Assembly: GCF_001644665.1 (NCBI RefSeq)
Contig: NZ_CP011393.1
Span: forward strand, 372,001 to 436,000
DNA from: Fervidobacterium pennivorans
GTDB taxonomy: Bacteria; Thermotogota; Thermotogae; Thermotogales; Fervidobacteriaceae
DNA length: 64,000 nucleotides
Direction of reading: 5' to 3'
Both the position numbers and the translations under genes were made by a program. Position 1 is the first letter of the stretch; each line of letters opens with the position of its first letter. This document shows positions 60,240 to 64,000 of the stretch, in pieces. The notes beneath the pieces are model-generated. The model ran no database searches. It was not told the DNA's origin and worked only from the letters and a program-made list of their open reading frames with translations.

Positions 60240-61946
60240 ATGAAGTTTTGGAAAGTTATTGGTTACGTAATGCTCACTGCATTCACTGTCTTCAGCATAC
60301 TTGGTGCCATCTTTCTTTTTGGAAGAGGTTTCTACGAGTTGTCTGTAACGCTCTTTGTTTTGATATTCTTGATAGACTTTTTTATTCTTAATAGGAACGC
60401 CTACCCATACCGCTACATGATACCAGCTTTGATTCTACTTTTTATTCTTGTTCTCTATCCAATTGCCTTCACGATAAGAACCGCATTTACAAATTATGGA
60501 ACCGGTCACATTATGACTCGTCAAGAGGTTGTCGAAAGATTGCTGGTGGACCCGATTTATACTTACGTTGTTCCAGACAGTTCGCCACTAACTTACAGCG
60601 TTTATGTGAGGTTTGAAGGTACTCAACCAACTAACGATTTTAGAACTATCGTATTTGATGGTTCAAGTTACTACGTTGCTAGAGAATATCGTGTTCTGAA
60701 AAGCGAAGCAGGGCAATTGATATTAGGTGAGGCGGAACTGATAAAGCTTAGTGAAAGTGGATTGAGTTTAGAAAGGCAAAACGGCAAAATAGAGCTTATT
60801 CGAGATAGCGGGAAGATTTACAGGTACTTTTATAACCCTGAAGATAGCTCAACATACATAAATGAAGATTATTTCAAATATTCAATACTTTTCCCAATTA
60901 TGAGTAAAATAGAATTTGTTGACAGTAATGGTAATAGATTTGCAGTCAGGCAAAATGAAGATGGAAAGCTTTTAATGTACAATATCAGACATTTGTATAA
61001 ACTAGGTCTTGCTGAAACAATAGAAAAGGGAAAAAGTATAGTTAAGACAGTTCTCATAAATACAATCACAAATAGGCCACTGATTGAAGAGAATGGTACG
61101 ATATACGATATAAATGAAAAGGGAGAGAAGGTAGCTGTTGGTGGATACATTTCTTATTATGGTTTGAAGAATTTTACAAGAATATTCACCGATCCAACTG
61201 TTTCCGGTCCATTCGCAAAAATATTTGTTTGGAACTTCACATGGGCTGCTTTGAGCGTCTTGTTCACTTTTGTAATAGGTTTGATACTTGCCCTTGTTCT
61301 TAATAATCCAAACCTAAGAGGTCGTGCAATCTACAGGTCTCTTTTAATTATACCTTGGGCGATACCTGCCTTCATATCGGTTCTCGTTTGGAAGAACGGG
61401 TTCTTCAATGAAACATATGGTATTTTAAACAAGTTTATAATTACACAAATTTTTGGTAAGGAACCCATCAGGTGGTTTAACGACCCGTTTTGGGCTAAGG
61501 TTGCTGTATTGACAGTCAACACATGGCTTGGTTTTCCCTACATGATGGTTGTTTCACTGGGTGCTTTGCAGAGTATTCCTGAAGATTACTACGAAGCTGC
61601 TGCTATCGATGGCGCTAACAAATGGCAAAGATTTTGGAAGATTACATTCCCATTGCTTATGACTACTATCGCACCTTTATTGGTTGGTAGTTTTGCGTTC
61701 AATTTCAACAACTTTGTCAACATATACCTCCTTACCGGTGGTGGACCTGCAATGCCAAATACCACAACACCTGCTGGTTCTACAGATATTTTGATTTCTT
61801 ACACATACAAACTTGCTTTCGAAGGAGGACGTGGTCAAGATTTCGGTTTTGCTTCAGCAATATCTATTATCATATTCTTCATAGTCGGAACACTGAGCTT
61901 TATCAACTTCCGCCTGTCTGGGTCCTTTGAGGAGGTGAATAGATAA
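60240..61946 (+). CDS. malF: Maltose ABC transporter permease MalF
   Basis: 568 residues behind AAGGAGG. Three N-terminal membrane segments (about 5-85) precede a large periplasmic insert (about 90-300), the counterpart of the E. coli P2 loop that touches MalE. The permease core then has the EAA loop YYEAAAIDGANKWQRFWKITFPLL that docks the ATPase. LLTGGGPAMPNTTTPAGSTD and the final segment are MalF-like. The stop and the malG start share a base (TAATG), so the two are coupled. No malK is in the window; Thermotogales often keep it elsewhere. Confidence 0.94.
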   Translation: MKFWKVIGYVMLTAFTVFSILGAIFLFGRGFYELSVTLFVLIFLIDFFILNRNAYPYRYMIPALILLFILVLYPIAFTIRTAFTNYGTGHIMTRQEVVERLLVDPIYTYVVPDSSPLTYSVYVRFEGTQPTNDFRTIVFDGSSYYVAREYRVLKSEAGQLILGEAELIKLSESGLSLERQNGKIELIRDSGKIYRYFYNPEDSSTYINEDYFKYSILFPIMSKIEFVDSNGNRFAVRQNEDGKLLMYNIRHLYKLGLAETIEKGKSIVKTVLINTITNRPLIEENGTIYDINEKGEKVAVGGYISYYGLKNFTRIFTDPTVSGPFAKIFVWNFTWAALSVLFTFVIGLILALVLNNPNLRGRAIYRSLLIIPWAIPAFISVLVWKNGFFNETYGILNKFIITQIFGKEPIRWFNDPFWAKVAVLTVNTWLGFPYMMVVSLGALQSIPEDYYEAAAIDGANKWQRFWKITFPLLMTTIAPLLVGSFAFNFNNFVNIYLLTGGGPAMPNTTTPAGSTDILISYTYKLAFEGGRGQDFGFASAISIIIFFIVGTLSFINFRLSGSFEEVNR

Positions 61947-64000
61947 TGGTTCGAAAAGAAAGAAAATGGCTCACACATATCATCCTTATAATAGTCTCTA
62001 TAGTTGTTTTATTCCCAATTGTCTGGGTCGTCTCTACGTCCTTAAGACGTGACAATGCAGCGTTTTCAACTAAATTGTTTAGTAGTAGAATGACTCTTCA
62101 AAACTACATAGATCTTATAGCACCCGAGAAAAATGGACCAAGATTGGTTTCTGATATGGACGCACTTATTCTGATGGCACCTCCTCATGATAAGATTACG
62201 ATCGAAAAAGCAAAAGAACTTTTCCAGAACGATGTCAAAAGATTCAAGATGTACATTCAAGAAACCGAAAAATTGAAAAAAGAAATAGACAATGCAATTT
62301 CTTATCTTAATGATTATTTTGAAAAGAATTCGCAGTCGCTCACGAAATCTTACATAGCTGATATAGACAGCATTATTAAAGAACTCCAATTTGAAAAACC
62401 AAAAAAATATTTAGAGGTTGCTGCTTATGAATTGTACTCTCAGGGTGAGGACCTAAGCTCTATCCCAGAAGTTGACCCATATGCAGGTCAACAGGACTGG
62501 GAAGATATGATTGGTAAAAGAAAAGCGAAATTAGAAGAGTTGAATAATGAAAAGGTGACTTTGCAAAGTGCTATTGAACCTCTGGAAAAAACATATCGAA
62601 CATACCAAAGTCAATATCTAAGCCTTTCTAGAACCATTCGGTCTTTCTTGGTTCCACAGCTAAAGGAATACTCCTTGGTTCTCAATTCTGCGTCTGACTT
62701 GCTCGATGCTGCGAAGGTCTCTAATGTTTTGGCAGAATCATTACCAGAAGAAAATACAATATTAGAAAGTTTCAAAACAACATTTGAACAGATAAAAGGT
62801 ATCCAATTGAATGTTCAGAAGTTTGATGATTTGAAAGATATTGGCGAAGCGTTGTCAGAATTTCAGAAGGGATATAACCAAGTAATTAACAAATGGGCAC
62901 AGGCAACAAACAAGGATAAAGCACCATTTGCCGATTTCTTGAATACAATAGATGTCTTTACAACGAGAATAGCAAGTACAATAAACGAAACTGTAAGCTT
63001 AATGAACAGGTTAAACAAAGTAACCGAGAAAATGTTACAATTGCAAGTGGAAATAACGAAATACAAGAGCAGGTATGCTAAGATTGAAGAAGAAATCAAC
63101 AACATTAGTGCTGAGCTTACAAAAGCTTACGAGCTTTTACATGATTCATTGTTGTACCTAAAAGCGAAACTTGCAATTACCCAACTTGAAAAAATAAAAA
63201 CTTTAGTTGCTAACATGAAACTCCCAGCTCAACTCCAAATGCTTAACATTCAATCTAAGAGGATATTCGGAATCACGACAGATGTAGCAAGCATGATAAA
63301 TGACCAAAAGAAGCAGAATAAGGTCAGGAAAATAGCTTCTAAGCTCGATTGGCCAGGTACTGCGAAAGACATGTTTACGAACTACGAAATTTTCTCGCAA
63401 AACTATGAATCTTTCATAAATGATTTAAAGGTTTACCTTGCGGATATAGAAATTCAGGGTCCTAAGTTTATGCCTGTTTCGAAGACAGGCGTAAAGGTCA
63501 GACCTGTTGCTATGGAACGTCTAATCGATACGGTGCTTTCTGTGTACAGGAACAACGTAGTACCTAATATGAATGTTATGTCGAGAAAGTCTTCCGAACT
63601 ATCTGATAAGCTAAATATAAAAGAACTTTCAGTGAGCTTGAAAAAACTCGATGGGGCGGCATTCAGGATCGACCAAATTTGGCAAAGAAAACCAGACCAT
63701 TATATGTTGAAGTGGATTATGAACAGTGTTATTGTCTCTCTCAGCGTAGCAATTATAATAACTGCGGTAACTGCTCTTGCAGCGTATCCATTCAGTAGGA
63801 TGAGGTTTAGAGGGAGAAAGTATGGAATCATGGCGTTATTGCTCATTCAAATGTTCCCAGCAATTATGTACATGATAGCTATTTACACATTCTTATCGTT
63901 CGCTGGAAAGTATATTCCAGGGTTTGGATTGAGTAAGCTATCTGGTTTGATATTTGCTTATCTTGGTGGTATTGCATATAATATGTACCTTATAAAAGGT
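61946..64000 (+). CDS. malG: Maltose ABC transporter permease MalG with a giant extracytoplasmic insert (partial)
   Basis: The ATG at 61946 overlaps the malF stop; the frame is open to the window end (685 codons so far). Residues 1-30 are the first membrane segment (THIILIIVSIVVLFPIVWVVSTSLR) and SRMTLQNYIDL opens like a normal MalG. About 550 residues are then inserted (roughly 45-585), made almost entirely of long charged heptad-like helices (KAKELFQNDVKRFKMYIQ, KRKAKLEELNNEKVTL). The permease core resumes at KWIMNSVIVSLSVAIIITAV, with AAYPFSRMRFRGRKYG and LIQMFPAIMYMIAIY. E. coli MalG is 296 residues. The EAA loop and C-terminus lie beyond the window. Confidence 0.92.
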   Translation, partial: MVRKERKWLTHIILIIVSIVVLFPIVWVVSTSLRRDNAAFSTKLFSSRMTLQNYIDLIAPEKNGPRLVSDMDALILMAPPHDKITIEKAKELFQNDVKRFKMYIQETEKLKKEIDNAISYLNDYFEKNSQSLTKSYIADIDSIIKELQFEKPKKYLEVAAYELYSQGEDLSSIPEVDPYAGQQDWEDMIGKRKAKLEELNNEKVTLQSAIEPLEKTYRTYQSQYLSLSRTIRSFLVPQLKEYSLVLNSASDLLDAAKVSNVLAESLPEENTILESFKTTFEQIKGIQLNVQKFDDLKDIGEALSEFQKGYNQVINKWAQATNKDKAPFADFLNTIDVFTTRIASTINETVSLMNRLNKVTEKMLQLQVEITKYKSRYAKIEEEINNISAELTKAYELLHDSLLYLKAKLAITQLEKIKTLVANMKLPAQLQMLNIQSKRIFGITTDVASMINDQKKQNKVRKIASKLDWPGTAKDMFTNYEIFSQNYESFINDLKVYLADIEIQGPKFMPVSKTGVKVRPVAMERLIDTVLSVYRNNVVPNMNVMSRKSSELSDKLNIKELSVSLKKLDGAAFRIDQIWQRKPDHYMLKWIMNSVIVSLSVAIIITAVTALAAYPFSRMRFRGRKYGIMALLLIQMFPAIMYMIAIYTFLSFAGKYIPGFGLSKLSGLIFAYLGGIAYNMYLIKG

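Follow-up and report, generated by a model that had tools for sequence, protein, structure and literature searches.

The window analysed here, a stretch of 64,000 nucleotides from Fervidobacterium pennivorans (host genome of 2.06 Mb, single contig), closes on an operon with the gene order malE-malF-malG, which encodes a substrate-binding protein and two permeases (Table 1). No malK was found among the genes adjoining this operon. The malG frame is open to the window edge, with 685 amino acids inside the window, and is complete in the whole genome, where it encodes 803 aa and ends 357 bases past the window. MalE scored 253.6 bits with the MalE model, below its cut-off of 291, and is probably soluble, since none of the MalE sequences recovered carries a lipobox-like motif.

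Two separate parts of the 803-aa protein resemble ordinary MalG. Its N-terminal residues 3-41 match the first transmembrane segment (TM1) of Escherichia coli MalG, and its C-terminal 222 residues (582-803) form a MalG core that is 45-47% identical to the E. coli and Vibrio proteins. This core includes the EAA loop for the ATPase, a 27-residue stretch from aa 693 within a nearly invariant region, and scores over the cut-off of PF00528 (BPD_transp_1; 67.5 bits). The match to the MalG model (E 1.2e-70, positions 76-296) reached 237.8 bits and not the NCBI equivalog cut-off of 261 bits, probably a length effect of an insert that splits off the N-terminal part; the name MalG in its strict equivalog sense is thus not proven for this protein. 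Ligands reported for relatives are maltose, mannooligosaccharides or trehalose (PMC2246101).

Table 1. Features of the malE-malF-malG operon, with positions in the window
Feature	Positions	Strand	Basis
malE, substrate-binding protein, probably soluble, 395 aa	58901..60088	+	signal peptide; SBP_bac_8 9e-51
malF, permease with large P2-type periplasmic loop, 568 aa	60240..61946	+	MalF model, 397.8 bits (cut-off 392)
malG, 5' 685 of 803 codons	61946..64000	+	ORF and whole-genome sequence
MalG TM1, aa ~10-31	61973..62038	+	match to E. coli MalG residues 9-47; model helix 8-37, low confidence there
Helical insert in the MalG TM1-TM2 loop, aa ~64-578	62135..63679	+	E. coli comparison, AlphaFold2, composition
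Insert N-terminal base, conserved, aa 61-110 (N63, P80, Y103)	62126..62275	+	conservation profile and invariants
Long helix, aa 178-258, 81 residues, putative ascending arm	62477..62719	+	AlphaFold2 model
Presumed tip, aa 259-325, lowest conservation within the insert	62720..62920	+	model and conservation profile
Longest helix, aa 326-421, 96 residues, putative descending arm	62921..63208	+	AlphaFold2 model
Insert C-terminal base, conserved, aa 461-580 (W469, G515, L552, W579)	63326..63685	+	model and conservation profile
Start of ordinary MalG core, aa 582-685	63689..64000	+	model match and E. coli comparison

Coding status and predicted fold of the MalG insert

Between TM1 and the core lies an uninterrupted insert of about 515 residues, somewhat shorter than the ~550 residues of the first-pass annotation, whose description of an intact insert flanked by normal MalG sequence is otherwise borne out by the open frame, the TM1 match and the identity of the core. 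Because the frame is unbroken both in the complete genome and in relatives, an artefact from a frameshift or a fusion at the edge of the window was ruled out; a chance open frame or annotation artefact was ruled out by conservation and by substitution patterns. Among close relatives, the insert has a dN/dS of 0.10-0.17 against 0.01-0.025 in the core, a roughly six- to twelve-fold difference. The insert is a real protein under purifying selection.

The composition of the insert (Gly+Pro 5.5%, charged residues 28%) is accompanied by a hydrophobic period of 3.5; all six inserts tested have a peak at 3.5-3.6 that lies above all 200 of their shuffles, and the window insert displays the heptad repeat of hydrophobic residues that marks coiled coils. 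It contains no membrane-like segment, the best 19-residue hydrophobicity average being only +0.88. No Pfam or NCBIfam model matched it over cut-off, with only chance matches to coiled coils, and no plasmid-borne homologue was found in a plasmid search. A homologue elsewhere in the same genome was also considered and rejected, the single weak match (E 7e-5) being read as coiled-coil noise.

Modelling with AlphaFold2 of the whole MalG, using 42 related sequences, predicted residues 64-579 to be all helical, mostly with pLDDT values of 85-95, in agreement with the long amphipathic helices poor in Gly and Pro that had been proposed from the sequence. The longest helix would measure ~144 Angstrom if straight. 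The membrane core was poorly modelled (pTM 0.52), probably because the alignment held close relatives only. When the insert of a Thermotoga-type relative, 22% identical to that of the window, was modelled alone, the same helix order was obtained with a pLDDT of 93.2 and a pTM of 0.70. Foldseek searches with the insert alone returned no match at E < 0.001; the best matches were SMC/MukB arms and the dynein stalk, with TM-scores of at most 0.25, a weak likeness of shape only, as the insert has neither ATPase heads nor a hinge. From the order of the helices and from these weak structural matches, which are to antiparallel coiled coils, we infer an antiparallel pairing of the long helices into a rod.

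In solved structures of E. coli MalG, the TM1-TM2 loop is periplasmic. By homology, the insert should therefore be extracytoplasmic, as had been anticipated, and the confident helices together with this loop position speak against a disordered or cytoplasmic segment. The E. coli protein (PDB 2r6g, 3puy, 9bcr) shares with the window MalG its TM1-TM2 topology, its MalF (P2 loop) and MalE partners and a core of 45% identity; in contrast, it has only 296 aa, with a short TM1-TM2 loop and no rod.

Distribution, origin and earlier description

A ~500-residue hydrophilic region between TM helices 1 and 2 of Thermotogales MalG1 and MalG2 was described by Noll et al. in 2008, in a set that included Fervidobacterium and Thermosipho (PMC2246101). 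That description relied on TMpred only and offered no fold; its authors regarded the function as unknown and reported the region to be absent from every other MalG (PMC2246101). Gene, position between TM1 and TM2, and size all coincide, and the window insert is this already known feature; the earlier remark that its role was not known agrees with the literature, although the trait itself had been published. What is added here is the near phylum-wide spread, the copies in Dictyoglomota, the conservation pattern and the other long permeases of the genome. No paper on the insert fold or on the Dictyoglomota copies was found in a literature search that left subscription journals mostly outside its reach.

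Consistent with the suggestion of a lineage-wide trait, a long MalG frame (stretches of 662-963 aa) was detected in 97 of 103 Thermotogota species genomes, a count in which two frames seem cut by contig ends (G062, G102) and one has in-frame stops (G085), while one of the six genomes left uncounted (G066) has its frame at a contig end. The MalG-like frame of G085 (C17, ~16.5-18.7 kb) has five such stops and represents either a broken gene or a poor assembly. Insert length varies almost two-fold, from 345 to 642 residues; three Dictyoglomota copies that are complete have 456-460, most Thermotogales ~490-542 and some other families 626-642. The shortest intact long MalG (G048, L049; 638 aa) has the 345-residue insert with both conserved junctions, and this insert is possibly close to the minimal functional one.

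A scan of 84,980 species genomes with one junction motif gave matches only in Thermotogota, including metagenome-assembled genomes (MAGs), and in one Dictyoglomaceae MAG. This motif missed Dictyoglomota carriers that were later found by whole-genome search, so further phyla may also carry the insert. The whole-genome search revealed long MalG frames of 748-801 aa in four of seven Dictyoglomota genomes, two of them on a chromosome-size contig, and partial copies in two more; the 2008 statement that no other MalG carries the region thus no longer holds. The same genomes also encode an ordinary MalG of ~285 aa, with a core 54-57% identical to that of the window protein. The long malG of Dictyoglomota belongs to an operon ordered regulator-malE-malF-malG-GH53 galactanase (L124, L126), in which the GntR/LacI-like regulator and the GH53 endo-galactanase-like gene were named by reading their sequences; this arrangement suggests galactan oligosaccharides as a possible substrate of the importer.

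In a tree based on the core only, all long MalG sequences formed one clade (support 91/89), the Dictyoglomota copies were nested inside Thermotogota (99/83) and the window MalG fell inside its own genus group. The insert was, in the best reading of this tree, gained once and then transferred to Dictyoglomota.

Conservation along the insert and its candidate roles

Conservation along the insert peaks at its two ends, with N63, P80, W469, G515, L552 and W579 invariant within the taxonomic order, and reaches its minimum at residues 261-320, within the presumed tip. In the same operons, the P2 region of MalF occupies 221-236 residues and the MalG insert 456-642, with no significant dependence between the two lengths (23 operons, rho 0.37, p 0.08). 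P2 is the loop that docks MalE in the E. coli maltose transporter. Enterobacterial P2, like the MalG insert, adds a sizeable periplasmic domain to one permease subunit of this importer; it differs in being globular and located in another loop of the other subunit, and it is also present in Thermotogota.

Our tentative reading, to which we assign a probability of about 0.4, is that of a type I maltose/oligosaccharide importer in which MalG gained once an extracytoplasmic helical rod acting as a scaffold that holds or guides soluble MalE at its docking site. The first periplasmic loop of MalG would have received, in a single event, a large all-helical insert, whose long helices would pair antiparallel into the rod and whose two ends would form a base close to the membrane. 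By homology, this base would lie next to the P2 loop of MalF and the face at which MalE docks, and the outer part of the rod may serve in the periplasm as a spacer or fence under weak constraint. Because the base is conserved and would adjoin this docking face, we infer that a scaffold for soluble MalE is the most likely role of the rod. The poor conservation of the tip, the lack of a lipobox-like motif in MalE and the near-constant length of P2 beside a variable insert were likewise counted in its favour. On the other hand, a conserved base is equally expected from a purely structural attachment, and P2 already performs MalE docking in E. coli.

The same conservation profile bears on the possibility that the rod is an envelope tether, spanning the periplasm so that its tip binds peptidoglycan, the outer membrane or a toga protein and fixes the importer under the sheath or near porins. 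The helices are predicted to be long enough to cross much of a periplasm, and insert length is roughly constant within groups, yet we consider this role unlikely: the presumed tip is the least conserved stretch, the domain search found no cell-wall or membrane-binding domain in the insert, insert length spans 345-642 residues overall, and the insert is also found in Dictyoglomota. To our knowledge, Dictyoglomota have no toga. With the insert retained in this phylum and so little conservation at the tip, the toga appears a poor partner, and the toga-specific link raised in the first-pass annotation is weakened, also by the almost two-fold length variation.

Coiled-coil-like, fast-evolving surfaces are typical of self-association. 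Rods of neighbouring transporters might associate with one another and so draw MalFGK2 complexes together in patches. A precedent is MmpL5 (PDB 9mvz), a mycobacterial transporter with a periplasmic coiled coil that assembles as a trimer (PMC12501195). MmpL5 resembles MalG as a membrane transporter with a periplasmic coiled-coil extension; in contrast, it is an RND exporter with a trimeric tube for drug transport, and its match to the insert is weak (E 0.22). Such clustering seems improbable, as a confident monomeric fold of the insert was predicted without partners.

Most hosts are thermophiles, and the conserved base would also suit a passive stabiliser that clamps MalF-MalG or MalE at high temperature. 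The mesophilic genus Mesotoga, however, has the insert at full length (L104), indicating that the insert is not tied to heat, and most other importer permeases of the F. pennivorans genome are devoid of such inserts, which makes this explanation very improbable. Least probable of all is that the loop merely tolerates a gain of neutral or selfish sequence with no specific role. It would account for the elevated dN/dS of the insert relative to the core and for its variable length, but the absolute dN/dS is still low, nearly all Thermotogota genomes have kept the insert, base residues (N63, P80, W469, G515 and L552) are conserved and the insert is present in another phylum after transfer.

Other long permeases and significance

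The genome has 42 permease matches, most of them of ordinary length. Besides MalG, three importer permeases, all encoded outside the window, have large TM1-TM2 inserts. The first, a 719-aa permease of sugar type (L154:6455-8611, minus strand; G000:C1 ~276.45-278.61 kb), carries between TM1 and its core an insert of ~430 residues and is recognisable in 46 of the 103 Thermotogota genomes; BLAST detected no homology of its insert with that of MalG (E 0.044). The others are a DppC-type permease of 828 aa (L155:1108-3594, minus strand) and an OppC-type permease of 571 aa (L156:1223-2938, plus strand), with inserts of ~520 and ~270 residues, respectively, between TM1 and a conserved GTD-GRD-like core; these two inserts were read by eye. 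Further long frames occur in a Thermotoga-type genome (G037; 704 and 541 aa) and in G067 (806 and 554 aa). The MalF-like partner of the 719-aa permease (L154:8600-9959, minus strand) seems split into a 332-aa ORF followed by a permease match in another frame; its counterpart in a Thermotoga-type relative has 433 aa, and the split is either a sequencing error or a broken gene.

A broader and doubtful proposal is that several type I importers of Thermotogota, and by transfer of Dictyoglomota, independently gained large extracytoplasmic domains in the TM1-TM2 loop of one permease subunit, the MalG rod being one case. Serving as arms in a wide periplasm, these domains would catch or steer the soluble binding protein. 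We know of no such capture step in the uptake of model ABC importers.

The maltose transporter is a textbook ABC importer, and a whole phylum keeps on it a rod of 350-640 residues whose role has been in question since 2008. The confident fold, the conserved base, the second recipient phylum and the existence of sister permeases without a rod make this question testable, for instance in Thermotoga maritima. If the rod does handle the binding protein, it would add an extra step to the way importers obtain their cargo.
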